Shown in pieces: positions 6,461 to 21,746 of a stretch of 64,000 nt of DNA. This DNA is from an uncultured Chromatiaceae bacterium (GTDB lineage: Bacteria > Pseudomonadota > Gammaproteobacteria > Tenderiales > Tenderiaceae), in NCBI GenBank assembly GCA_945787785.1, contig CALZIO010000009.1:1-64000 (forward strand), written 5' to 3'. Every line of letters begins with the position of its first letter. Position 1 is the first letter of the stretch. A program made the position numbers and the translations under genes. The notes under the pieces were generated by a model. It searched no databases. It was not told the DNA's origin and worked only from the letters and a program-made list of their open reading frames with translations.

Positions 6461-7828
6461 TTAAAATGTAGAAACCTCACCATTTTCATGCAGACCGTAC
6501 TTACGCATCTTTTCCCAAAGGTTTTTACGACTGATGCCAAGTATCGAGGCGGTTTTTGAAACTTGCCAGCCATTTTCAAGAAGGTGACTCAACAGATGCT
6601 CGCGTTCACACAACGAGAGAAAAGCTTTCAAGTCCGGTTCATCTTTGATATCCGCATTCTCAGAATTGGTTGAACCTAATTCTGCTGGTCCGAGCATCTC
6701 ATTATAATTAAGCACACAGGCACGTTCTATTGCGTGGCGCAGTTCGCGTATGTTTCCAGGCCAATTCTGCTGCAATAAATATTTTTCACAGTTTGGCAAT
6801 AAGAAATGCTGTTTTTTATGCTGCTCGTAAAATTCTTGCAAGAACTTATGCGCAAACCAGATGATATCCTCTTTTCGTTCACGTAACGGCGGCATATGCA
6901 CATGAATCACGTTGAGACGGTAAAACAAGTCCTCTCTGAATTCGCCTCTTGCGACCATCGCTTTCAGATCACGATTAGTGGCGCAGACAAGTCGCACACC
7001 CACCTGAATGGATTTCTCTCCGCCGACTCGCTGTACTTTCTGATCCTGAATCACACGCAATAATTTGGCTTGCATAACCGACGTCATTTCCCCTATTTCA
7101 TCAAGAAACAAGGTTCCACCATTCGCTTGCTCAAAAACACCATGGTGTGTTCGTGTGGCACCGGTGAATGCGCCTTTTTCATGACCAAACAATTCCGCCT
7201 CTAACAAGCTTTCACTAAGGGCGGCGCAATTGATCGCGACAAACGGTTTCATATCTTTAGAGTTTTCCGGCCGCTCTGGATTTCCCTTGCAATGCATATA
7301 GTAAGCGGCATATTCTTTACCTACGCCGGATTCTCCAGTAATTAGCGTACTGGTCTTGTGATCAGAAAGGCGCGCTAGCATTTCTTGTATGGAGCGCATC
7401 ACAGGGGAAATTCCCAACACTGGTTCCAGGCCATCTTTCTCACTCGAGCTGAAAAGAGACGGAGATAAGTCATGTAATTTATCAAGTAGCTCATCCAAGT
7501 CAAAAGGTTTGGTTATATAATCTCGCGCCCCTAGTTTTAATAGATTTACTGCCTGATCGATAGAACCAAATCCAGTAATAAAGATTGTGGCAGGGGGAGG
7601 AGCATCTCCTTCAAGCAAGCTGGCAAATAATTCCTCCCCGCTTATATCCGGCAACCGTATGTCACTCAACAAAGCAGAATATTTATGCTTAATGAGCGCA
7701 TTTAAAGCATTTTTACCATCTTTAAACCAGTCACACTCAACTCCTTCAAGAGAAAATCTTTGGGTTAATGACTCGCCCATAATGGGGTCATCCTCTACCA
7801 GACATAGCCGTCCACGTTTAGTTTTCAT
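6461..7828 (-). CDS. sigma54-dependent response regulator, NtrC type (ArxR/AioR-like by context)
   Basis: Receiver domain ([23 protein letters not shown]), [30 protein letters not shown]. Confidence 0.93.
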
Positions 7829-9324
7829 GCCGCACGCTCCAGGGGTAAGCTAACAGAAAATATTGTTCGACCAGTGTCATTCTTTACGTCAATTTCGCCA
7901 TTCAGTTGTCTTACCAGTTGATAAGTAACCCAAAGCCCAAGTCCATGGCCATTTGGATTATCATGTACAAGTGGTTCAAACATATTGCTGATTCTATTCT
8001 CATCAATATGGCCGCTATCATTTTCTATATTGATTCGCAGATCATTTTGTTCACGATTGATATAACACCAGACACTACCACCTTCTTCTGATGCCTGAAC
8101 GGCATTCATTGAAAGGTTGATGAGAATCTGGCGTGTCTGCGTAGAAGGTATTGCAACTGTTTCATGAAGATTGTTTTGCCATTCTATGTTTATGGTACGT
8201 AGCCGGGCATCAGATTGTATCAACGTATAAATATCATCCACATCCTGTGGTGTCAGAGGATGACCTTCTACGCGAGCCTCTACTAACAATGCTGATACCG
8301 TTTCTCGAATTTGGCAGAGTCCCCTTTCGAGTAGAGACATTGTGCTATCAGAAATATCATTGCTTGATCCATGATGTTTAAACGTATTAATGGAATTTAG
8401 CATCCCCCCCAAGGGATTATTGATCTCGTGTGCCACACCTGCAGCTAACCTACCCACTGCAGCCAGCCGCTCTGATTCAACCATTTTCTTTTCCAGACTT
8501 TCTTTTTCTGCAAGCTCTTTGATCATGTTTCGAAAATTAACCCCAAGCTGACCAACCTCATCATCCCCTTCATGCAAACTGCAGCTGATTTTTCCTGGCG
8601 GTTCCTTCCCAACACGGCTGAGACAGTGCGCAAGCTTGGTTAACGGCTTGGCCATTCGCTTACCCATATAGGCCCCTAGAGGCACGAGAATCAGCATCAC
8701 CGCGAGCAATGCAAAAATCACCCTTTTCACAATTGCATAAAAACGTGGCAACAAAATGGAACGTGAATAACCAACAATTAACGTCCCCAACGCCACACCA
8801 TCATCAATTATGGGTGAAACAATATAGATACGCAGATTACTGGGATGCTCATATGTATAAGGTTCTAAAGAATTAAATTTAAGAAAATGTGCTTCCAAAC
8901 GAGCCATCTCTGCATTAACTGAGCGTAACTCACTATTTAAAGGAAACAGTTTGGGGTGATCAGATGCGTATACTGTATAGTCATTAGTAAGCATTATAAA
9001 TACACGCTCATCCAGACCATCATTCTGGGCGGACGCATTTTCAAGAGTCTGGTAGGCCAGCCAGACATTGTCTTGTTTCAATGCAGATACCAACGTGTCG
9101 TTTATGACCGTACCCACCTTAATTGCATTGTGAAACAGCTCGTCACGTAGATCTTCCACAGTGCGCCATGTCATGATAACTGTAACAATAAGTCCAGTGA
9201 ATATAATGGTAAAAACCATTACCAATGGCACTTTATAGCGATAACTCATTTGTCCCAACATAGTGCTAATCCTCACCAATCGAATTCGCCGCGGCGAGAA
9301 TGTCAAAATAAAGCCTGTCATCAC
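7825..9324 (-). CDS. membrane sensor histidine kinase (likely start near 9261)
   Basis: TM segments, HAMP-like region, H-box AAGVAHEINNPLGG, degenerate N/G boxes (NLSMNAVQAS, GHGLGLWV). Confidence 0.92.
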   Translation of the reverse strand: MMTGFILTFSPRRIRLVRISTMLGQMSYRYKVPLVMVFTIIFTGLIVTVIMTWRTVEDLRDELFHNAIKVGTVINDTLVSALKQDNVWLAYQTLENASAQNDGLDERVFIMLTNDYTVYASDHPKLFPLNSELRSVNAEMARLEAHFLKFNSLEPYTYEHPSNLRIYIVSPIIDDGVALGTLIVGYSRSILLPRFYAIVKRVIFALLAVMLILVPLGAYMGKRMAKPLTKLAHCLSRVGKEPPGKISCSLHEGDDEVGQLGVNFRNMIKELAEKESLEKKMVESERLAAVGRLAAGVAHEINNPLGGMLNSINTFKHHGSSNDISDSTMSLLERGLCQIRETVSALLVEARVEGHPLTPQDVDDIYTLIQSDARLRTINIEWQNNLHETVAIPSTQTRQILINLSMNAVQASEEGGSVWCYINREQNDLRINIENDSGHIDENRISNMFEPLVHDNPNGHGLGLWVTYQLVRQLNGEIDVKNDTGRTIFSVSLPLERAA

Positions 9325-10180
9325 TCACCATGAAACCATCGAGATTGAGACGCTGCAGTAACAGTTGGCCTTCGGAATCAGAAGACATGGATAGAAATGC
9401 TTTTTGTAATTTGTTAAGACGTTCGGGCTTAATCCCCAAGTAAGTGGCGATAGGTGGAAAACCAAATTTTTTTGATTTCATGACGACGCGGGTACGTTTT
9501 ATTAAAGACGGATCAATCGTTTTCAAGGTTTCCCACACGTAACCATCTACTGCCCCACCCTGCGCCAATTCAACGGCAACTGCTTCGATTACATCACGGT
9601 GCGACCAGGCAAAAAAAGTTCGTTGGAAAAAATGCTTGGGATCGAAGCCTTTGGAGGTTATTGCCACTTGCGCCACCAAATATCCTGAGTTTGAATCAGG
9701 GTCCGAATAGGCAAAAACTTTCCCCTTAAGATCGGATATATCACGGGTCTTGTTATCACTGTTCGGTACAATAAGGTATGACTGGTACAACGGTTCGCCC
9801 TCATATACCGGAACAGCCACTAATTGCAAAGAAATATTATGCCTGACATAGGGGAAGCCGCAGATCCATGCTGCATCCAGGTGCCGCCCCAATAGCAAAT
9901 CTGTAATTTCACCATAGGTATCACGCTGAACAAATTCGACTTTTGCATCCAGTTGGCGTTCGAGATAAGACTGCCACTGCTTCAATGCAGAAGATTGATC
10001 GTGGAGAAAAACGGGGGTCAAACCAATACGGTAGGTATCATGACTGGCGATAGCAATGGTCGAAAAAGAAAATAGACACAAGGCATAGAAAACCGAAATT
10101 AAGGCAGCATAAATAAGCTTTACCTTCAGAAAAGGTTTTGGGCCATGCAGATCGAATCGTGCCTTCGTAGACAGAATCAT
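9266..10180 (-). CDS. PhnD-like periplasmic binding protein (ArxX/AioX/TtrS-sensor-like)
   Basis: Signal/TM segment then YRIGLTPVFLHDQ, DAAWICGFPYV, DPDSNSGYLVA typical of phosphonate-binding-type proteins; overlaps or abuts the HK gene. Confidence 0.85.
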   Translation of the reverse strand: MILSTKARFDLHGPKPFLKVKLIYAALISVFYALCLFSFSTIAIASHDTYRIGLTPVFLHDQSSALKQWQSYLERQLDAKVEFVQRDTYGEITDLLLGRHLDAAWICGFPYVRHNISLQLVAVPVYEGEPLYQSYLIVPNSDNKTRDISDLKGKVFAYSDPDSNSGYLVAQVAITSKGFDPKHFFQRTFFAWSHRDVIEAVAVELAQGGAVDGYVWETLKTIDPSLIKRTRVVMKSKKFGFPPIATYLGIKPERLNKLQKAFLSMSSDSEGQLLLQRLNLDGFMVSDDRLYFDILAAANSIGED

Positions 10181-10263: not shown

Positions 10264-10761
10264 CTATTCAAAGCGTTGAGCCGGCTCCCTCATGTCACAC
10301 AATCCCTTCGGCACCACAAAAGGCACTGTACCTGGTTCAACATATACTTCCTCGACTATCTCAACCGGAAATCCCGCTGCTTGCCAAGCATTGATACCAC
10401 CCTGAAGCAAATAAACCTTATTTTCGGGAATATCTATCCGTTGAATCCAGGAACGAATGTTTGCTCCGGTATCAGGATCATCTGTTATCAGCACCATCGA
10501 TTTGCCTGATTTTCTGGGTAAATACCCTTGTGGGTCCAGCCCCGCATCCACTGCGCCCATGATCGTTCCCGTCATGTACACTTCATGTCCGCGAATATCG
10601 AGTAAGAGTGGTGGTTCATTTGAGTTGAGCCAACGCATCAGTTTTTCCGGCGAGATTGTCTGATGTGCTGCACTAATAAATGGAAGGCCAAACAGGAATA
10701 GTCCAAGGCATGCATGTACAATAAAATTTTTTTTGTAATAACTAAACCTTGCCTTATCCAT
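10264..10761 (-). CDS. exported rhodanese-homology-domain protein lacking the usual catalytic Cys
   Basis: Signal-like N-terminus; LLLDIRG, VYLLQGGINAWQAAGFPV; active-site loop position reads ITDDPDTGANI. Confidence 0.78.
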   Translation of the reverse strand: MDKARFSYYKKNFIVHACLGLFLFGLPFISAAHQTISPEKLMRWLNSNEPPLLLDIRGHEVYMTGTIMGAVDAGLDPQGYLPRKSGKSMVLITDDPDTGANIRSWIQRIDIPENKVYLLQGGINAWQAAGFPVEIVEEVYVEPGTVPFVVPKGLCDMREPAQRFE

Positions 10762-10792: not shown

Positions 10793-11515
10793 TTAAGCCA
10801 TAAACTTTATCGGGATTTCCGAAACCTGGCACTTAAGCACCGTAGACAGTGTTGAACAATCATACTTCTGCACCAAATCCTCAGTCACGATTACTGCTTC
10901 CACACCTCCTTCTGTGGCAAGATTTTCAAAGTGTTTTACTGTGGTTGCACCTCCAGAAAGCCAGATGTCTCCAGAAAACCAGCGACGCGCCCGCTCGAGC
11001 ATGTCCAGATCGAAACCCGAGCCTGCACTTTGCGCATCCAGTGCATGTAACCATAAACGTTTGAAGCCCAGGCGTGATGCTTTGGTTAGTGCTTCCTCAA
11101 GGCTTGAGTCGCTATCACCATCAGTCACTCGATAACCGCGAATAGTCGTAGTATCCGGAGCGTAGACCTTAAAACCCTCACCGTGACTGACATTGGAAAA
11201 GTCATAACGCCTGGCTGATTTTTTAATGTCCAGCCGAGGCACCCAGGTCAGTCCAGAAAACTCATCACACAATCGGGCGCTTTCAGTCAGTCCACAGTCT
11301 GTCGTCCACACCACATCGTCATGCTCCGACCATGCTTGGTTAATATCAGGGTCTTCGGCGCGCAATATAATCATTGATGTTGAAATATTTGCTACCTCAT
11401 TGGGTGACACCAATGCAGGATCGATAACAAGACCATCCGCACCATCGAAGAGTTCTATTGATTTCTCTGTTATTGGGTTTGTTGTCTTTTCTACAAAAAG
11501 TCGGATCTGATCCAT
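10793..11515 (-). CDS. HisA/HisF-like TIM-barrel protein of unknown function
   Basis: C-terminal phosphate-site-like IWLSGGATTVKHFENLATEGGVEAVIV; start MDQIRLF. Confidence 0.5.
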   Translation of the reverse strand: MDQIRLFVEKTTNPITEKSIELFDGADGLVIDPALVSPNEVANISTSMIILRAEDPDINQAWSEHDDVVWTTDCGLTESARLCDEFSGLTWVPRLDIKKSARRYDFSNVSHGEGFKVYAPDTTTIRGYRVTDGDSDSSLEEALTKASRLGFKRLWLHALDAQSAGSGFDLDMLERARRWFSGDIWLSGGATTVKHFENLATEGGVEAVIVTEDLVQKYDCSTLSTVLKCQVSEIPIKFMA

Positions 11516-11579
11516 AACAACCTCCACAGCATCTATTGACCTATCCAGGACAGCTTTCTATCTATAACTTTAAATAATA

Positions 11580-12533
11580 TTAGTCGAGCAAGCGTTCCCA
11601 AAACGCCTCATGATCTTCCCGGAGCGAAGTATCAGCATCGCGCTCACGATAGAGTCGTTCACGTTCCACCGCTTTTGCAACTTGCCCGGCGAGATTCGTA
11701 AATGCAGTTGCAGCCTTACCTTGATCATTGGATATCACCAGTGGCTGGCCTCTATCGGCGGCATCCTGACCGGCAGGATCAAGAGGTATACCACCTAGAT
11801 AGGCTACATGTTTTCGTGACGCCAATGATTTGGCACCGCCTACAGGAAAGAGGGCCTGTTCCTCACCACAACAGGGACATACGTATCGATCCATATTCTC
11901 TATGATCCCGAATACAGGAATATCAAGCTCATGAAACAAGGCGATGCCGCGCTCAGCATCCACCAGCGCCAGCTGTTGCGGAGTGGTGACGATAACAACG
12001 CCACTCACAGGCACCTGTTCCAGTATCGTTAACTGAACATCACCGGTGCCAGGCGGAAGATCGACCAGCAAAATATCCAGGTCAGGCCATACCACTTCAC
12101 GAAACATCTGCACCAAGGTTTGCGCCACCAGTGGTCCCTTCCATGACAGCGCAGCCTCGGGTGGCACGACGTTGGCGATGGACACCGCGTAGATGTCATG
12201 GTTTTCAGCCGGCAGGGTCATACCATTATCATCTCGATCCAAGCCGACATTCACACCCAACATCCGGGTAATCGATGGTCCGTAGAGATCTGCATCCAAG
12301 ATCCCCACCCTCATGCCTTGACGTCGCAATGCACAGGCCAGGTTTACCGTTACCGTAGATTTACCCACTCCACCTTTGCCACTGGCAACCAATATCACAT
12401 CATCAACACCTTGGATCGGCTCCTCGGGTTCGGCATACCAGGGTTCATCAGTGTCACCTCGGTGTTGACTATCATTGCCTGTGGATTCAGCAATGACGGG
12501 GATCGGGAAAGGGCGATTGGCATCCCAGTTCAT
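11580..12533 (-). CDS. Mrp/NBP35-family Fe-S carrier ATPase (paralogue 1)
   Basis: Deviant Walker A ASGKGGVGKST, DADLYGPSI, LPPGTGDVQLT, CPCCG. Confidence 0.9.
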   Translation of the reverse strand: MNWDANRPFPIPVIAESTGNDSQHRGDTDEPWYAEPEEPIQGVDDVILVASGKGGVGKSTVTVNLACALRRQGMRVGILDADLYGPSITRMLGVNVGLDRDDNGMTLPAENHDIYAVSIANVVPPEAALSWKGPLVAQTLVQMFREVVWPDLDILLVDLPPGTGDVQLTILEQVPVSGVVIVTTPQQLALVDAERGIALFHELDIPVFGIIENMDRYVCPCCGEEQALFPVGGAKSLASRKHVAYLGGIPLDPAGQDAADRGQPLVISNDQGKAATAFTNLAGQVAKAVERERLYRERDADTSLREDHEAFWERLLD

Positions 12534-12544
12534 ATGTCGTCTCC

Positions 12545-13636
12545 TCAGTTTGTTAACGATGCATCCTCAGCACCTTGAGTGCGCGGCAAGCCCAGAAGAA
12601 GGGTAAGCTGGGCTGCTATATTTGAATATAGCCGCGTAAACAACGTGTCTTGAGACACACTCACAAGGGGTACACCCTTGTCTGAATGGTGCGCGACATC
12701 CGGTTCAAATGGGATACTTGCCAAAAGTGGAATACCCATTTGTTCTGTCAACTGGACGCCACCGCCCTCCCCGAATACTGACCCAATGTGGCCACATTGC
12801 CGACAACTTACACCGGCCATATTTTCCACCACACCCAGGCATGGAACAGCGAGATCTGCAAACATTTCCATACCCCGGCGCACATCATCTATAGAGACCT
12901 GGCCTGGCGCAGTAACCGTGATGATTCCTGACAGTGCTACCTGACGGGCTGATGCTAAGTGCACGTCAGAGGTGCCCGGGGGCAAATCAATCAACAGCAG
13001 GTCAAGCTCACCCCAATCCACATCCGTGAACAGTTGCGGTAGTCCCTGATCCACCAGAGAGCCACGCCACATCAACGCCTGCCCTGCCGGCAACAAAAGC
13101 CCGAGCGACATGAACTTTACTCCATGAGCAATGAAGGGTTGGACACGATCGCCGTCATCGGTAGTGCTAGCTCGGCCAGATTTACCTAATAGAGTTGGCA
13201 CGGAAGGCCCGTAAACATCCGCGTCGAGCAGTCCCACTTTCAGACCTTTGGCAGCCAGGGTCACTGCCAAGTTGACTGCGACCGTGGATTTACCAACACC
13301 GCCTTTGCCACTGTGTACGCCAACAACATGCGCAATGCCAGGCAGTTTCTGGCGCAAGGCGACAGAGCGCGGCCGTGGTTTTATCACGGCTCTCTGCACA
13401 CCCGGCACTGACTCCACCAGTGGTGTAATAAATTCCGCCAGCGTTTGTTGATCCTGTTCGTTAATACGCTCCTGATCCAGCAACACCCGCACAGCACCAT
13501 CGGTGGCGACAACATCAAAAACCTGACCTGTTGATACAATATCCGGACCATCCGGACGATCGCTAACTGTCTGCAAAACAGACATCACCGCATTTTCCAG
13601 CTCAGTTGAATCCATTGTTGCTTGATTCATGGACAT
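12545..13636 (-). CDS. Mrp/NBP35-family Fe-S carrier ATPase with N-terminal MIP18-like domain (paralogue 2)
   Basis: HSGKGGVGKST, DADVYGPSVPTLLG, LPPGTSDVHL, CRQCG. Confidence 0.9.
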   Translation of the reverse strand: MSMNQATMDSTELENAVMSVLQTVSDRPDGPDIVSTGQVFDVVATDGAVRVLLDQERINEQDQQTLAEFITPLVESVPGVQRAVIKPRPRSVALRQKLPGIAHVVGVHSGKGGVGKSTVAVNLAVTLAAKGLKVGLLDADVYGPSVPTLLGKSGRASTTDDGDRVQPFIAHGVKFMSLGLLLPAGQALMWRGSLVDQGLPQLFTDVDWGELDLLLIDLPPGTSDVHLASARQVALSGIITVTAPGQVSIDDVRRGMEMFADLAVPCLGVVENMAGVSCRQCGHIGSVFGEGGGVQLTEQMGIPLLASIPFEPDVAHHSDKGVPLVSVSQDTLFTRLYSNIAAQLTLLLGLPRTQGAEDASLTN

Positions 13637-13935
13637 ACCATCCCCTCCTTCAGATAATTCTTAATCACCTCAGCCTCGCTATCATTGATCACGTCTGCAG
13701 CACCTTGCTGTTCACGCATGGTGTCGACAATCGTCACACGCTTACTCCGGGAGAACTGACACATATCCGAGAGCGTGTGGCAAGCCGAGCAACGTGTGAC
13801 ATAGATCTCCTTTGCTGTACGCGGTTGTTTTGTCCACCACCAGACCACACTGCACAACAGCGATAGCAGCACAACCACAACAGCCCACTTAACTTTCCAA
13901 CATTGCCATCCATTCGTCATCGAGTTCTTGTTCAT
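13627..13935 (-). CDS. small membrane-anchored c-type cytochrome
   Basis: N-terminal TM helix followed by CSACH heme motif; overlaps both neighbours. Confidence 0.75.
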   Translation of the reverse strand: MNKNSMTNGWQCWKVKWAVVVVLLSLLCSVVWWWTKQPRTAKEIYVTRCSACHTLSDMCQFSRSKRVTIVDTMREQQGAADVINDSEAEVIKNYLKEGMVCP

Positions 13936-15031
13936 TGCTGCATGTTAAACATAGCGTTTCTGTTTCTGTCTGCGGGATAAAGGGATGCCTGCATTGGCTA
14001 CACTCTTTTTGGTGTCGATACATGAGTAGAGTTCGAGGCGCGACTACTTCATCCACATTCGCGACTGGGTGAGGTTCAACTGCATTCATTGGACAAAGCT
14101 GGGTACATAGCCCGCAATCGGTGCATAGGACAGGTTCAAAACTGATACCCCGCCCCGCCTGGCTCTCTTCTGCTTGAAGGGCACCGGTAGGACAACGTTG
14201 CCCGCAGCTTAGACATGCACTGCATTCATCATTAAGGGTACGGCTTCGCCATGGTAGTTCTGTGGTAGTCCAGGGCAATTCAGCGACATGTTCAGCGAGC
14301 AGTGACTGATAAACTTCGGCTTGTTGGCGGTCAACCTCCCCCTGATAAAATCCCTGCAGCGCTAAAGTTTCCTCTTCTTCCTCGATTGGCACTAACCATT
14401 GAGTTGCACTCTCTAAAGCCTGCACACCAGCAAATCTTAGGAAGTTACGCCGGCTCATCTGAGGTTGATTCTGGTACTGCCGATCTCCCTCAACTGTAAT
14501 GCATTCTTCGGCCAAAACCAGCTGAGGCGCCTCTTCACCAAACCAATACTCCAACTGCTGTTGTACCTCAGTCACATAATCGATGGCATTGCCTTTGTCG
14601 CATGCCTCGCAATGGGTAAGTCCATGTAGATGAAATGTGTTTGTGCCACCACTGGCAAAAGCTGCCGCTATAAGACGTGCATCCAGCACACGATGACAGG
14701 GAATGACAACACCCCCGCCTTTGTCGGTGCTGGCACTGCAATGAATATGCGCCTCGTCTTTACTCTCAAGCACCTCCACAAATCGCCGTGGTGAGAAACC
14801 ACTGAGCTGTAAGACACCTGCTGGGCAGGATGGTAGGCAGGCACCGCAACCTGTGCAGGATTCGGAATTCAGTTCAATGGCGTCTTCAGTCAGGTCGAGC
14901 GCATCTACATTGCAGGCGTCAGCACAGGAATTGCACGACAAGGTGCGACCACGCAGGTTCAGACACAACTCTTCGTCGATAAGCAGCGCCTCACCACTCC
15001 AGACTGAACTCATGTCGGGACGCTTGCTCAT
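13889..15031 (-). CDS. multi-cluster 4Fe-4S ferredoxin-type protein
   Basis: Several CxxCxxC/CxxxC motifs (CNSCADAC, CTGCGACLPSCP, CSACLSCGQRCP, CTDCGLCTQLCP) and SRRNFLRF motif. Confidence 0.88.
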   Translation of the reverse strand: MSKRPDMSSVWSGEALLIDEELCLNLRGRTLSCNSCADACNVDALDLTEDAIELNSESCTGCGACLPSCPAGVLQLSGFSPRRFVEVLESKDEAHIHCSASTDKGGGVVIPCHRVLDARLIAAAFASGGTNTFHLHGLTHCEACDKGNAIDYVTEVQQQLEYWFGEEAPQLVLAEECITVEGDRQYQNQPQMSRRNFLRFAGVQALESATQWLVPIEEEEETLALQGFYQGEVDRQQAEVYQSLLAEHVAELPWTTTELPWRSRTLNDECSACLSCGQRCPTGALQAEESQAGRGISFEPVLCTDCGLCTQLCPMNAVEPHPVANVDEVVAPRTLLMYRHQKECSQCRHPFIPQTETETLCLTCSNEQELDDEWMAMLES

Positions 15032-15054: not shown

Positions 15055-15492
15055 TCAGCCACCACTCGTGGCTACAATCTTGTCTGGTTCAGTAGATTCA
15101 GTCTGTGAGTTGAGCTTCCTGCCCAACCAGTAAGTCAAAGCAACACCACTGACCATGTTTGTGGCCAAGGGAATATTGTTGAGATCACAGGCGCGGTAAA
15201 AAGGTGTAATGTCTGGCTCATCAAGGCGATTGCTTTCTGGATCGCGGATAAAATAAACGGCACGGATGGTATTGGTGCAGATCAAACCGCACAACTGCAA
15301 TTCACCACCACGGCGGCCTGAGAACAGGTGCGTCACTTCCAAGCCCAGGGCTTCCTCAATCGCCTCCCCGGTCTCTGTGGTTGCCAGTAAACGATACTCC
15401 TCAAACACATCGCGCCGTTTGCTCATCAGCTTGATAAGGTCGCCTACCTTATTGTCGTGAGCGATGAGTATGATAGTTTTTCCTAAACCCAT
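15055..15492 (-). CDS. methylglyoxal-synthase-fold (MGS-like) protein, divergent
   Basis: IAHDNK, LATTETGEAIEEALGLEVTHLFSGRRGGELQLCGLI, RDPESNRLDEPD, NIPLATN correspond to MgsA motifs. Confidence 0.7.
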   Translation of the reverse strand: MGLGKTIILIAHDNKVGDLIKLMSKRRDVFEEYRLLATTETGEAIEEALGLEVTHLFSGRRGGELQLCGLICTNTIRAVYFIRDPESNRLDEPDITPFYRACDLNNIPLATNMVSGVALTYWLGRKLNSQTESTEPDKIVATSGG

Positions 15493-15500
15493 AATTCAGA

Positions 15501-16643
15501 TCACCCTTCGCTGTTTAATGCCTTGCCTGACAATATCTCCAACGACACATCTGCGTTCAGGTTTTCAAATACACTTTTGTACAGACGAGTGTGGGAGCCA
15601 GCCAAACGTTGGATCGCCGCAGTGACAGATTCCTCCTGCATCAGTGTTGTCTGCATAGTCTTAAGTTGATCAGCATGAGTGGACAGCTGATAAAGCGTTT
15701 CTGACCAGGCATGCCTATCATCGTATTTCAGCGTAAAACCGTGATGCCCCTCCTGAAACCATGCCCCCTGAACCCGGTCTGAACGTAACAGTGGAACGGC
15801 GAATGCGGCTGCAAGATCTGTTAAAGGGCTCTTGCAAAGCTTGGCATAAGGCATGACAGAAAGATGTGTCTTCATAAACAGGTCGGCCACACATTCCGCT
15901 TCCACATAACGATCAATCACCGTTATCCTCAGCCGTTCCCTGGCCCGGGCCAAGAGATCAGTTGCCACACCCCGCATCACGCCTTCACCAGCAATTACAA
16001 AATGGAGCTGCGCTGGCCACTCTTTTCTGTTACCAAGCACATCCAACAAGAAAGACAAGCCCTTGCGTGTACTGCCATGACCAAAATAGAGCAAGCGGAA
16101 TTCATCATCTACAGGCATGGGTAGTTCCGTCAGCCTGCGTCTAGGTGCAGCGGGATGTGCCATAAGATTTGGACTACCAGGTAAAAAGATCAGCCGTAGC
16201 TTCGATAGATCGAAGATTTCCTCAAGTCCCCAGGCAATGTGCCTGTCTCGCGCAACCACCCGATCAACAAGCCGATAAATGGCCCGGTATAGAGGCATGG
16301 TAGCCCAGCGTGCACGATGGGGCAGAATGTTATGGGGCGTATAGATGACACGGATTCCACGTCGATGTGCCCATTGAATGAACAACAATACGGCCAGGGC
16401 ATTATCTACCCATTGTATGTGGACCACATCCACAGGTGTCTTCTTGATATGGCGTTTCAGTTCACTCCAGACGCGCCAGCCCTCGGTTTTACATGCGTGT
16501 TTGGTGAAAGGCACTGGCCAGCTGGAAAGTTCATCCCGTTTCCCTGTTATCAATGTCACCTGATGCCCTTCCTCATGCAGTCCTAACGACAGCGCGTGAG
16601 CGTAGTGACACAGAAAACCACGGCCAGAGGATTCAACAAGCAT
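15501..16643 (-). CDS. glycosyltransferase, GT4/GT1-like
   Basis: N-terminal VMLVESSGRGFLCHYAHALSLGLHEEGHQVTLITG; LLYFGHGSTRKGLSFLLD, FVIAGEG. Confidence 0.8.
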   Translation of the reverse strand: MLVESSGRGFLCHYAHALSLGLHEEGHQVTLITGKRDELSSWPVPFTKHACKTEGWRVWSELKRHIKKTPVDVVHIQWVDNALAVLLFIQWAHRRGIRVIYTPHNILPHRARWATMPLYRAIYRLVDRVVARDRHIAWGLEEIFDLSKLRLIFLPGSPNLMAHPAAPRRRLTELPMPVDDEFRLLYFGHGSTRKGLSFLLDVLGNRKEWPAQLHFVIAGEGVMRGVATDLLARARERLRITVIDRYVEAECVADLFMKTHLSVMPYAKLCKSPLTDLAAAFAVPLLRSDRVQGAWFQEGHHGFTLKYDDRHAWSETLYQLSTHADQLKTMQTTLMQEESVTAAIQRLAGSHTRLYKSVFENLNADVSLEILSGKALNSEG

Positions 16644-16662
16644 CACTCTCACGGCAGAGCTC

Positions 16663-17409
16663 CTAAAGACCGGAGGCCTTGCGAAAATCGGCGTCGTAGT
16701 CCAACTTCCTTGGTTCACGTCGATTCAGTTGTGCCAGCTCGCGCAGCTGACGCCGGTCTGCGCTGGCCGCCAGCTCTGTCCAGAGCAATTGTTCGGTGAG
16801 TGCAAGTATATTCTGGTAAAAAGGATGTAGCGCTGCAGCTGCTGCCCGCTGACACCAACTAGGTGCCCAAGACCCGATCTCCTTAAGCAAAAACTGGATA
16901 CGTTGCTCGGCCCATTGTTGCGCCGCCTGATGATCGCCCTTTTCCAGAGCATCCGCTTCCGCATTGGCGAGCACACCGACAAAGGACAGCATAGTACCGA
17001 TATGGTCGGGAAACTCACCACTCAATAGATGCTTATAATCCCACCCTGCCTTGCGGTAGGCAGCCACGGCACGGTCACAAGCTTCACGATACATTGCGCC
17101 GGTCTCGAATACTGATGCATAGGGACTCAAGCCCCCCGGCGCAACGAACAGGCCGGTGTATTCCACAGCAAGCGTTTCCAGCAGTTCAGTCTCAGGCACA
17201 GAATAGAAATCCGCATCTAGATTAAAACCCGCTTCTGCCAATGGCAGGCGCAGGTCGCCACGCAACAGCATAAGCAGTTCGCTGTCGACCTCTTCTTCCA
17301 GGCACCGCCCTGCCAATTGAAAAAGACCTGCACGTGCCCTTTGCGCCTCTATCTCATCATCTATTGTTACCGTTGTGCTTACCTTTTCAACCACCTGCTC
17401 TGTTTGCAT
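16663..17409 (-). CDS. TorD/DmsD-family molybdoenzyme chaperone
   Basis: All-helical TorD-like sequence (YTGLFVAPGGLSPYASVFETG, DHIGTMLSFV) immediately downstream of the catalytic subunit. Confidence 0.85.
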   Translation of the reverse strand: MQTEQVVEKVSTTVTIDDEIEAQRARAGLFQLAGRCLEEEVDSELLMLLRGDLRLPLAEAGFNLDADFYSVPETELLETLAVEYTGLFVAPGGLSPYASVFETGAMYREACDRAVAAYRKAGWDYKHLLSGEFPDHIGTMLSFVGVLANAEADALEKGDHQAAQQWAEQRIQFLLKEIGSWAPSWCQRAAAAALHPFYQNILALTEQLLWTELAASADRRQLRELAQLNRREPRKLDYDADFRKASGL

Positions 17410-17440
17410 CACATACCCTCCCTCTAAAAAGGCTGATTGA

Positions 17441-20116
17441 CTAATGGCTGCTGCCGTGCAGTTCTGGTTTGGGTAAATTATCCCAGTCGACGTCGACCTC
17501 CTTGTGATTGCTCCGGTGTATGTCACCGGTATACGCGTAACGCAGAGTCTCTTCATAATCTTTCAAGGACTGTTCCACACTAACTTTGACGTCGCCATAT
17601 TTATCTCCAGCCTCCGCCTTGGCTACCGTCACTACAGTGTCATACCAGCCTTGCGAGCCGCCAATTGGGTCGATTGCCAACTGAATGATGGGGTTGGGAT
17701 GGACACCCTTGTCATTCCACCAGACGTTATGGCTGACATCAGGGTCTCCGCCTTGTGCCCATTCTGCTGCTGCTTCACGCTGTTTAAGCTGCGCAAGTCT
17801 GCCGTAGGCAGAATGACCACAGGCCGTGGATATCGCGACCACTTCTGGGTGAATCCCTTCGGTCACATGGGCGCGGGTAACGAGATAACCCAGCTTGGAT
17901 GTGACCCGGATTAAATCGCCATCGTTGATGCCGCGTGCTGATGCGGTTTTAGGATTAATCCAGGCGGGATTTTTGTGATAAAGCTCCGCCAGGTATTTCA
18001 CTGAAGCCGTACGGCTCTGGGTGTGCACATTGACCTTGTAGGTTGTCAGCACTAACTCACTGTCTTTTTTACTGCGCGAAGGTAAGGGCTTATAGACTGG
18101 CAAGGGATTAAAGCCGTATTTCTTGTAGCTATCTTTATACAGCTCAATCTTCCGCGATGGTGTGCCAAAACCGACATAGTTTTTACCGTCTACGCGCACA
18201 CCAATAGAGTGGTCACCTTTTCTGATTGTGCCATGGTTACCAACGTCAGCTCCTTGCATATCACCACTGGACAGTTCACTTTTGTACAACTCATAGTCAG
18301 GCTCGACTTCGTTGTTGTTGCGGTCGACGATCTTGGCAGTCTCGGGATCCACTTTGCCGTAGATAGGCCACACGCCCTTCTTCTTCAGAAAGTTGTAACC
18401 GCCCTCTTCCTTGAGGCCGGGAATGTTATCGAAATGCGCCCGCATCCAGTCCTCGACAGTGTTGAAGGCAAAGTATTTTCTCATACCCATCGAACCATCC
18501 TGATCAAGCTTGTGTATGGTATCGATGAGCGTCTGGCGAAACTCCTGAGTCCCGCCCAATGGTTTGATTACCGGTTGACGGATAGACAAACATGGATACA
18601 AACCACCAGGCATGGATTCAGGGTCATGGCGTTCCAGATAGGTCACATCCGGAATGATGAGGTCAGACAATTCCGTTGTTTCCGACATATAAGGGCTAAA
18701 GGAAACAAGAAACGGGACCTGCTTTTCATCTTTTAAAAAGCTTTCCCAGACGTGGCTTGATGGATAGGTATAAACAGGGTTGTCGTAATATGTCATCCAC
18801 ACCGAAACCTTTGCTTCACCCTTCATGATCATATAGGGTGCATTGGTAGAGACATGATGAGATGCCAATGGATACAACGGCGGAGTAGCGATTGGACTCG
18901 GCGTCGCTGGTCCATGTGGGACAGGTTCGGGTTGAGGCCAACCCATGCCCCGTGGTAAACAGTAACCTCCCTTCTTCTCTACATTGCCGGTGATGACATT
19001 GAGCATATGAATGGCGGCTTCCTGATAACTGCCATAGACATGTTTACATGGGCCGCGGTATGAGAAGGTCGTCGCTGGTTTGGTAGTGGCAAACTCACGT
19101 GCAATGCGGCGAATATCCCTGGCTGACATGCCTGACTCCTGCTCGGCATATTCGGGCGTATAGGGTTTTAAATGATCGATGAGTTGTTTTGACGTGACAT
19201 TGGTCCAATCACGAATGAAATCCTCATCATAGAGTCCCTCATTCATGATGACATGCGCCATGGCCAGGGCAATCGCACCATCAGACCCGGGAAAGGGGTA
19301 AAACGCTTCGTCGGCAAAGCCTGATGTGTTTGACATACGCACATCGAAGCTCACCAGTTTAGCCTTGTTACCCACCACCCCATCCACCAGCCGCTGGGCA
19401 TTGGGATTCATGAAATAGGCAGTTTCAAGAATATTTGAACCGAAGTTGATGATGTACTTGGTATTGGCCCAATCACAGGACTCAATATCCGGCCCCCATG
19501 ATGGCTCCAGGCCTACTTTTTTGGACGATTCGCAGACGTTGGTATGGTTCAGCATGGCATTGGAACCCAGTGTGTGCATAAAGCGCTGCACTGCACCCCC
19601 GGTACGATCGCGTCCCCACTTGAAGACGATCTCGTTGCGGATGCCAGGATCATGCTCAGCCTCGGCACGATCAATCACTTCCTTAAGCTTTGTTGCTAAC
19701 AGAGTCGTCGCTTCATCATAGGAAATGCGTTTCCATTTACCTTCGCCACGAGCACCTGTACGAACCAGTGGTGTCATGATCCGGTCCGGGTCATAAACAT
19801 GCAAGAAACCCGCGTTACCCTTGGCACAGAGTTTACCGCGGGTGTTGGGGTGATCCATGTTTCCTTCGAGTTTGACAACGCGGCCATTTTCAACATAAGC
19901 CACGCCGCCATCCTCGATGTTACAGGCCAGACAAGTAAAGGGAATGGCCTCGCGTTCCGCTCCCGTCATTGATGAGTAATCCGTCCCGCCCAGATCCTGT
20001 TCCATTGCCCGAAGACGTTTGCTTCCAAGCGTCAAAGCTCCCGCCGCACCACCTGCCGCGAGCCCTAATTTCATAAAGTCTCGGCGGCTTATGTAATTGA
20101 TACCCTTCGTGCTCAT
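17441..20116 (-). CDS. Tat-exported molybdopterin oxidoreductase catalytic subunit (CISM alpha subunit; substrate unresolved)
   Basis: Tat motif SRRDFMKLGLAAGG; FS0-like CLACNIED...LCAKG; molybdopterin oxidoreductase fold; NVCESSKKVG at probable Mo-ligand region. Confidence 0.92.
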   Translation of the reverse strand: MSTKGINYISRRDFMKLGLAAGGAAGALTLGSKRLRAMEQDLGGTDYSSMTGAEREAIPFTCLACNIEDGGVAYVENGRVVKLEGNMDHPNTRGKLCAKGNAGFLHVYDPDRIMTPLVRTGARGEGKWKRISYDEATTLLATKLKEVIDRAEAEHDPGIRNEIVFKWGRDRTGGAVQRFMHTLGSNAMLNHTNVCESSKKVGLEPSWGPDIESCDWANTKYIINFGSNILETAYFMNPNAQRLVDGVVGNKAKLVSFDVRMSNTSGFADEAFYPFPGSDGAIALAMAHVIMNEGLYDEDFIRDWTNVTSKQLIDHLKPYTPEYAEQESGMSARDIRRIAREFATTKPATTFSYRGPCKHVYGSYQEAAIHMLNVITGNVEKKGGYCLPRGMGWPQPEPVPHGPATPSPIATPPLYPLASHHVSTNAPYMIMKGEAKVSVWMTYYDNPVYTYPSSHVWESFLKDEKQVPFLVSFSPYMSETTELSDLIIPDVTYLERHDPESMPGGLYPCLSIRQPVIKPLGGTQEFRQTLIDTIHKLDQDGSMGMRKYFAFNTVEDWMRAHFDNIPGLKEEGGYNFLKKKGVWPIYGKVDPETAKIVDRNNNEVEPDYELYKSELSSGDMQGADVGNHGTIRKGDHSIGVRVDGKNYVGFGTPSRKIELYKDSYKKYGFNPLPVYKPLPSRSKKDSELVLTTYKVNVHTQSRTASVKYLAELYHKNPAWINPKTASARGINDGDLIRVTSKLGYLVTRAHVTEGIHPEVVAISTACGHSAYGRLAQLKQREAAAEWAQGGDPDVSHNVWWNDKGVHPNPIIQLAIDPIGGSQGWYDTVVTVAKAEAGDKYGDVKVSVEQSLKDYEETLRYAYTGDIHRSNHKEVDVDWDNLPKPELHGSSH

Positions 20117-20134: not shown

Positions 20135-21010
20135 TCAAAAATAGAGCTGTGGCAGCTGTCCGGCGAAAATCAACACCTCGCGAAAACTGTAAGCCCCAAC
20201 AGCGCTTAACACACCGGCCAGTGTCACCATCTTCGGATCCTTGGCCAGTTTAGGTAAGGCCACTAAGAGCAGCGGAATAAGAATGCCTACGACTAAGGTC
20301 AACAACCAGAACTTTATGCCAAACTCATTCATGATGAATTGCCCGGCATGTTGTTGTTCTTCAGTACCATAGGAAAGCACTACCCATTCCGCCAGGAACA
20401 AGGCAAGTGTTGTCCCCACAGAAACAAACAGGATAATACGCAGTAGTTGAGTCACTGGTGGTGTCAAACCCTTACCCAACAACAATATTAAGGCTGACAA
20501 ACCAGTGCCAGAACTCATGGACAGGATGACAAACAAGACTGGTATTGTTGGGCTGCTCCACAGTTCGCGCGCCTGATTTACCATTAGATCGAGTCCTGTG
20601 TATAGCGGCATGCTCAGTGCCAACAGACTACCGATGATTCCGAGTGGTTTAAGCAAGTTAGGCTTATTAAAGGCCAAGCCATACAAGAAACCAATAATGC
20701 ACAAACCAAACAATGGTAAAAATAACGTGCCCCAGGACAACGGTGAGGTCCAGTGAAAATAGATGATAGGATAAAGGAAACGCGCAGGTTGCCCGATATC
20801 GGCAATCAATAATGGAACACATATCATCAGAATAACCAGGGCAACCAATATGCCCTTTTTCTGAAATGGCTCCATTACCTTGGTAACTCCACCAAACACA
20901 TTGGGTGCCGCCGCCAATACAAACACCATACTGGCGGTGCCGATGAGAAAGAAGTAAGCCACGATCTCATAGCCCCAGGGAGCGATGTTGTATTCTGTAT
21001 ATTCGAACAT
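20135..21010 (-). CDS. NrfD/PsrC-like polytopic membrane subunit
   Basis: Multi-TM protein starting MFEYTEYNIAPWGYEI, between Fe-S and catalytic subunit genes. Confidence 0.88.
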   Translation of the reverse strand: MFEYTEYNIAPWGYEIVAYFFLIGTASMVFVLAAAPNVFGGVTKVMEPFQKKGILVALVILMICVPLLIADIGQPARFLYPIIYFHWTSPLSWGTLFLPLFGLCIIGFLYGLAFNKPNLLKPLGIIGSLLALSMPLYTGLDLMVNQARELWSSPTIPVLFVILSMSSGTGLSALILLLGKGLTPPVTQLLRIILFVSVGTTLALFLAEWVVLSYGTEEQQHAGQFIMNEFGIKFWLLTLVVGILIPLLLVALPKLAKDPKMVTLAGVLSAVGAYSFREVLIFAGQLPQLYF

Positions 21011-21023
21011 GGTGACACCCTCC

Positions 21024-21746
21024 TTACAGGACGCCGGAGAAGAACTTGCTTCCCCGGTTATGTTGGTAGAACGCATGAGCATCTGATCTTGCTGCATATG
21101 ATACCGGGTGACTTGCAATCTGCTCGGTCATCACCCTGTCAGGTTTGATGTAATACACCTGTGGTTGAGTACCTTTTTCCGGTTTGAGCACTACGGTGCT
21201 GTTCCGAGCTACCAGGCGTGACACCTCACTCTTTGGATCATTGAGATCACCAAAAATTCGAGAGCGGCCAAGACAGGTCTGTACACAGGCGGGAACCAAT
21301 CCCTTTTCCACTCGGTGATTGCAGAATGTGCATTTGTCGATTACGCCGCTGATCTTGATCCGATCACGGTTTTTAGGCAGCACGTGGCGTGCATTGTAAG
21401 GACATGCGGCGATGCAGGTACGACACGTAATACATCGATCGTAGCGTTGTAACACGAAACCGTCCTCATGCTTATAGGTCGCCTCAGTAGGACAGTTACG
21501 CACACAAGGTGGATTATCACAGTGATTACATAAGCGCGGCATGAAATGTCGTTTGGTATTGGGGTAATTCCCCGTATCCTTGACCTTGACTATAGTGCGC
21601 CACACTCCCAAAGGCACATCAAACTCAGCCTTGTCGGCGCAGACACAGGCCATGCAACCAATACAGCGTCTTAAGTCGATGACCATTGCCCATCTTTTCT
21701 TTCCCGGAACGCCTAACGACGGCTCCGCTTGGAGACCAATTGGCAT
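21024..21746 (-). CDS. 4Fe-4S electron-transfer subunit (DmsB/PhsB/TtrB-like)
   Basis: Four Cys clusters (CIGCMACVCADKAEF, CNHCDNPPCVRNCP, CITCRTCIAACPYNARH, CTFCNHRVEKGLVPACVQTC). Confidence 0.93.
   Translation of the reverse strand: MPIGLQAEPSLGVPGKKRWAMVIDLRRCIGCMACVCADKAEFDVPLGVWRTIVKVKDTGNYPNTKRHFMPRLCNHCDNPPCVRNCPTEATYKHEDGFVLQRYDRCITCRTCIAACPYNARHVLPKNRDRIKISGVIDKCTFCNHRVEKGLVPACVQTCLGRSRIFGDLNDPKSEVSRLVARNSTVVLKPEKGTQPQVYYIKPDRVMTEQIASHPVSYAARSDAHAFYQHNRGSKFFSGVL

Follow-up and report, generated by a model that had tools for sequence, protein, structure and literature searches.

What does an aspartate do at a position where other molybdoenzyme families carry a cysteine ligand for an iron-sulfur cluster, and how did it come to be there? 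These questions are raised by a locus in a stretch of 64,000 nucleotides (the window) of contig CALZIO010000009.1, from an uncultured Chromatiaceae bacterium. The locus encodes a catalytic (A) subunit, its partner subunits and a series of accessory proteins (Table 1). The A-subunit translation contains CLACNIEDGGVAYVENGRVVKLEGNMDHPNTRGKLC. A Pfam search of this protein placed PF00384, PF01568 and PF04879 above cut-off, matched part of the Fe4S4 domain and gave a weak TAT match; by its Pfam domains and by AlphaFold2 modelling with Foldseek, the protein belongs to the DMSO reductase/CISM superfamily. The model is confident (mean pLDDT 88.3), and its best PDB matches are ArrA, the closest solved fold, and PsrA.

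Table 1. Features of the locus, with positions in the window. FS0 and motif residues are numbered within their own subunit.
Feature	Position	Strand	Remark
Catalytic (A) subunit	17441..20116	-	891 aa, TAT signal (RRDF), bis-MGD molybdoenzyme
Cys62 (TGT), FS0 ligand 1	19931..19933	-	Invariant in alignment
Cys65 (TGT), FS0 ligand 2	19922..19924	-	Invariant in alignment
Asp69 (GAT), at the third FS0 ligand position, where other families have Cys	19910..19912	-	Fixed in clade
Cys97, FS0 ligand 4, then conserved Lys99	19826..19828	-	Invariant in alignment
Cys195, predicted Mo ligand (NHTNVCESSKK)	19532..19534	-	Kept in the window's branch
B subunit, four-cluster ferredoxin, 240 aa	21024..21746	-	Pfam / family matches
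Cys36-Ala37-Asp38 in CIGCMACVCADKAE, versus CIGCMACVAACKAE in relatives	21633..21641	-	Second Cys-to-Asp change
C subunit, NrfD/PsrC quinone-reactive membrane anchor	20135..21118	-	Mechanical start too far upstream
TorD/NarJ-type maturation chaperone	16663..17556	-	Mechanical start too far upstream
Group-4 glycosyltransferase	15501..16718	-	Conserved in operon
Methylglyoxal-synthase-like protein	15055..15492	-	Conserved in operon
Polyferredoxin	13889..15031	-	Conserved in operon
Mrp/NBP35 (NUBPL/ApbC-type) Fe-S carrier 1	12545..13636	-	
Mrp/NBP35 (NUBPL/ApbC-type) Fe-S carrier 2	11580..12533	-	
HisA-fold-like protein	10793..11527	-	
Rhodanese-domain protein	10264..10761	-	
Periplasmic binding protein, PhnD/AioX type, seven arsenic-pocket positions	9266..10180	-	
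Sensor histidine kinase	7825..9324	-	
Sigma-54 response regulator	6461..7828	-	

Position and conservation of the aspartate

The FS0 motif of the A subunit reads C62-x2-C65-x3-D69-x27-C97 and spans 19826-19933. The original prediction, a C-x2-C-x3-D-x27-C motif with GAT at the third ligand position, is exact in both spacing and codon (codon 69); the range that it gave, 19870-19960, holds C62, C65 and D69 but misses the fourth ligand, C97. In pairwise alignments, D69 falls on the third cysteine of PsrA (CEGCFWRC), ArrA (CQGCTSWC) and FdhF (CPYCGTGC).

We scanned a single genome of each species and found the aspartate in all 15 relatives at 71-86% identity, the hosts being Sedimenticola, Allochromatium, Thiocystis, Thiodiazotropha and several Alphaproteobacteria. 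It is also present, at 56-60% identity, in further genomes and on a plasmid of Azoarcus sp. KH32C. The original prediction had proposed an alignment of close homologues to see whether Asp is fixed, and named as refuting it either Cys at this column in homologues or a neighbouring Cys in the ligand role in a structure model: every close homologue (56-86% identity) has Asp, none has Cys, and there is no conserved nearby Cys able to replace Asp. Among 40 other molybdoenzyme hits, drawn from relatives in the same class, none was found with Asp at the third FS0 position, and 24 show the full four-ligand motif with Cys in third place, a rough base rate in that, beyond these recognised motifs, the pattern failed on or misread the rest. 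Because Asp69 is fixed among the homologues of its clade and no Asp was found among these 40 hits, its conservation is, judged by this comparison, more than chance. Three DmsA-like proteins among the hits (L139, L142, L146) read CAHNC-x3-H, with His at the third FS0 position.

Within both the window's own branch and the Azoarcus branch, Cys62, Cys65, Cys97, Lys99 and Mo-Cys195 are all invariant; across the alignment, Lys99 is almost so. Since Cys195 and Lys99 are kept, the A subunit of the window's branch looks like that of a working enzyme. No alignment column holds a Cys that is common to all Asp rows and absent from the Cys rows. Two candidates for such a compensating residue were rejected: Cys386 is present in the parent clade's Asp branches, yet half of the Cys-type rows have it as well and a second Asp lineage (below) lacks it, and Cys195 is the Mo ligand.

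Two origins of the aspartate and a later change in the B subunit

In a quick-search tree of 66 A-subunit rows, some of them long, from which the motif and Mo-ligand columns were left out, Asp sequences stand in two places, and two changes suffice to account for them. The first Asp clade comprises 34 rows (SH-aLRT 99), which fall into three branches: the window's, that of Azoarcus and a third; throughout this parent clade Asp is present wherever FS0 is kept. The second (L038 type) comprises nine rows (SH-aLRT 100), and its sister is a group of 14 sequences with Cys. Denser sampling around the second clade found Asp in 20 of 20 close sequences and Cys in relatives at about 53-56% identity. When all Asp rows were held as one clade, the resulting single-origin tree was rejected (p-AU 0.0006, with six long or decayed rows left out of the test). 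Because of this rejection, we conclude from the tree comparison that the second lineage acquired Asp separately from the 34-row clade. The suggestion that the substitution may mark a distinct subclade is therefore borne out in part: Asp is fixed in the clade, but instead of a single subclade it characterises a broad clade and, independently, a second lineage.

The first clade also contains branches in which other ligands have changed. In its third branch (L045, L060-L068; the CPYFDGG branch), FS0 reads C-C-D-C, but Ser or Gly replaces the Mo-ligand Cys; these proteins may be non-catalytic or ligand-free molybdoenzyme-like subunits. In L048, L069, L070 and L071, the FS0 cysteines and the Mo ligand are both lost; these four still adjoin B and C genes and are reminiscent of QrcB/ActB. 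The distribution of the enzyme is patchy, since none of six genomes from the window organism's own genus has it.

A second Cys-to-Asp change lies in the B subunit, whose first ferredoxin motif reads CIGCMACVCAD in the window, where relatives have CIGCMACVAAC; the codons are TGC for Cys36 and GAC for Asp38. At the Asp38 position, Psr has Cys, as do four sequences of the window's branch and every outside relative for which the motif was read. Asp38, with the new Cys36 two residues upstream, is shared by the window's genome and ten relatives present in the tree. A tree built from A and B combined makes this swap a single change nested within the clade, and one sequence (L016), which reads VSAC in the B motif, is a possible intermediate. 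The sequences show that the B-subunit swap came later than the FS0 Asp; in a nested subclade that includes the window organism, the fourth Cys of motif I gave way to Asp38 and Cys36 was gained. The nested swap is a new observation here. By analogy with NarH, where FS2 is ligated by the fourth Cys of motif I, the Asp38 position probably belongs to FS2, which would be a second cluster with a changed ligand. The AlphaFold2 model of the B subunit is poor (pLDDT 61).

Operon, substrate and the FS0 cluster

The order B-C-A-TorD-glycosyltransferase-methylglyoxal-synthase-like-polyferredoxin is kept in nearly all close homologues, the exceptions being one homologue without a detected glycosyltransferase and one whose contig ends early. 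The two Mrp/NBP35 carriers are present in most homologues whose contigs extend that far; this tandem pair (11580-13636), conserved with the enzyme, may represent dedicated cluster loaders. The glycosyltransferase and methylglyoxal-synthase-like genes are conserved in this molybdoenzyme operon, and the catalytic residues of the methylglyoxal-synthase-like protein may be altered. The set of sensor, kinase and regulator recurs in the window's clade, the Azoarcus branch and the second Asp lineage, where it adjoins L107, L108 and L109. In that lineage, the expected NrfD place is taken in L107 by a NapC/NirT multihaem cytochrome gene (Pfam-checked), and in L108 and L109 by a gene of similar size. 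In Azoarcus, arsA and a gene for arsenite efflux lie next to the locus.

The sensor bears on the substrate. The AioX/ArxX/ArrX pocket is defined by Tyr88, Cys106, Tyr131, Ser161, Ser163, His192 and Asp210, with Cys106 absent in PhnD, and we found all seven in the window's sensor (Y89, C107, Y132, S163, S165, H194, D212), spaced as published except for a shift by one residue ahead of the serines, found in Sulfuricella ArxX too. Because the operon's sensor has this pocket, a thiophilic oxyanion, of arsenic or else of sulfur, is the most likely substrate, although this is a guess from the sensor. Sedimenticola selenatireducens carries the gene and does not use arsenate for respiration (PMC5052931). 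This speaks against an arsenate reductase role in that organism and makes oxidation the likelier direction if arsenic is right. If the pocket can be relied on, the product of the operon may be an arsenic-active enzyme of sulfur oxidisers and phototrophs that is so far uncharacterised.

It is also quite possible, if somewhat short of an even prospect, that the enzyme is a thiosulfate, tetrathionate or polysulfide oxidoreductase and that its AioX-like sensor says nothing of its substrate. PhsA is the best NCBIfam match and Psr the best PDB sequence match, the gene order is that of Ttr, a rhodanese is encoded in the operon and many of the hosts are sulfur oxidisers; every family score, however, lies far below its cut-off, and the sensor pocket includes the Cys that AioX, ArxX and ArrX have in common and that PhnD lacks.

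As a whole, the locus is best explained by a quinone-linked, TAT-exported molybdoenzyme whose electron wire was remodelled by aspartate substitutions, an explanation that we consider slightly more probable than not. The B-C-A-D operon would encode a periplasmic oxidoreductase with a quinone link via the NrfD-type subunit, and the electron path would run between Mo-bisMGD (with Cys195 as ligand), FS0, the four B-subunit clusters and the NrfD-type quinone site. FS0 would most likely still be a cubane, held by Cys62, Cys65, Cys97 and an oxygen of Asp69 as ligand to the fourth iron, and this oxygen ligation would alter the potential and lability of the cluster. An Asp69-ligated FS0 is supported because Asp is fixed, the three cysteines are invariant, NXR-A provides a precedent, a second lineage made the same change and no conserved compensating Cys was found; the explanation as a whole draws further support from the conserved operon with its Mrp/NBP35 carriers, the sensor pocket and the ArrA/PsrA-like model.

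Two other accounts of the cluster deserve consideration. In the first, FS0 is a [3Fe-4S] cluster on three cysteines, with Asp69 unbound or exchanging, and the wire works at higher potential. Three cysteines suffice for such a cluster, and a high-potential [3Fe-4S] cluster replaces FS0 in AioA/IdrA-type enzymes (PMC10100899), although in AioA a different Cys is replaced, and by Ser. We consider this account unlikely, though a credible competitor: an Asp that is invariant in two separate lineages fits a ligand better than a varying non-ligand, and the NXR precedent is a [4Fe-4S] cluster with Asp. In the second, FS0 is decaying and Asp marks a stage of that process, with an unstable or missing cluster and a protein drifting towards a structural, non-catalytic subunit like QrcB/ActB. 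The decayed sister branches, which have Ser or Gly in place of the Mo-ligand Cys or have lost FS0 and Mo ligands, count against the aspartate-rebuilt wire, as Asp could be such a stage. Yet the window's and Azoarcus branches show no variation at the remaining FS0 ligands, at Lys99 or at Mo-Cys195, a dedicated TorD chaperone is kept, and the second Asp lineage has no decayed member in our sample, so that we judge decay improbable. Finally, although the window's assembly is a draft genome in 135 contigs, a sequencing or assembly error or a private mutation is refuted for practical purposes by the homologues, as the same Asp occurs in isolates and independent genomes of many genera and Cys to Asp takes two base changes.

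A broader proposition goes beyond the aspartate-rebuilt wire: that this is an arsenic-sensing, quinone-linked lineage outside the named families, in which Cys gave way to Asp at FS0 and then at FS2, and that the independent repeat at FS0 points to selection for oxygen-ligated clusters. In its entirety, we regard it as speculative and more doubtful than not by a wide measure. Few cases so far show how ligand choice tunes the wire of a molybdoenzyme. The L038-type proteins and their Cys sister clade, at about 55% identity, offer matched Asp and Cys versions of one enzyme; with this pair, the nested B swap and the losses of cluster and metal ligands, both the effect and the direction of such swaps become directly testable.

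Comparison with known families

All scores of the A subunit against the Phs, Ttr, Arr and Dms families fall below the NCBIfam cut-offs. PsrA/PhsA are similar in fold, Mo-Cys, TAT signal, and FeS and NrfD partners; the window enzyme differs in gene order (B-C-A-D versus ABC; PMC2500031) and in its third FS0 ligand, and scores 363 bits against a cut-off of 694. TtrA resembles it in that the window order is BCA and that B and C are matched best by TtrB and TtrC, but the score is 106 bits against 1750, the window's B subunit (MPIGLQAEPSLGVPGKKRW) lacks a twin-arginine signal, and FS0 differs. ArrA/ArxA are likened to it by the ArrA fold and by the ArxX-like sensor with kinase and regulator in the operon; the score is 183 bits against 1600 for ArrA, the window order is BCA, and the ArrA and ArxA in our comparison have an all-Cys FS0.

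The uncharacterised 'Unk' clade (Duval et al. 2008, PMC2500031) has BCA order and TAT on A, as does the window enzyme; its published FS0 motif, like that of PsrA/PhsA and ArrA, is C-x2-C-x3-C-x27-C (PMC2500031), from which the window enzyme departs with Asp in third place. Our literature search, whose reach left out most subscription journals, found no paper on a third-position Asp motif.

The closest counterpart at FS0 is NXR-A of Kuenenia stuttgartiensis, in the same superfamily, which likewise has three Cys and one Asp at the FS0 positions. Its crystal structure contains an Asp ligand on a [4Fe-4S] FS0 at the second position (PMC8387239), and its authors make the case that the FS0 potential is tuned by coordination to Asp or His (PMC8387239); the window enzyme, known from its sequence, also has Asp at a cluster ligand position. 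The two differ in type: NXR-A is NarG-type, with Asp as second FS0 ligand (C67-x3-D71-x3-C75-x39-C115) and an Asp Mo ligand, whereas the window enzyme is Psr/Arr-type, with Asp at the third position and a Cys Mo ligand. Aspartate on FS0 is thus already known from NXR at the second position; here it stands at the third, in a family that is unnamed.
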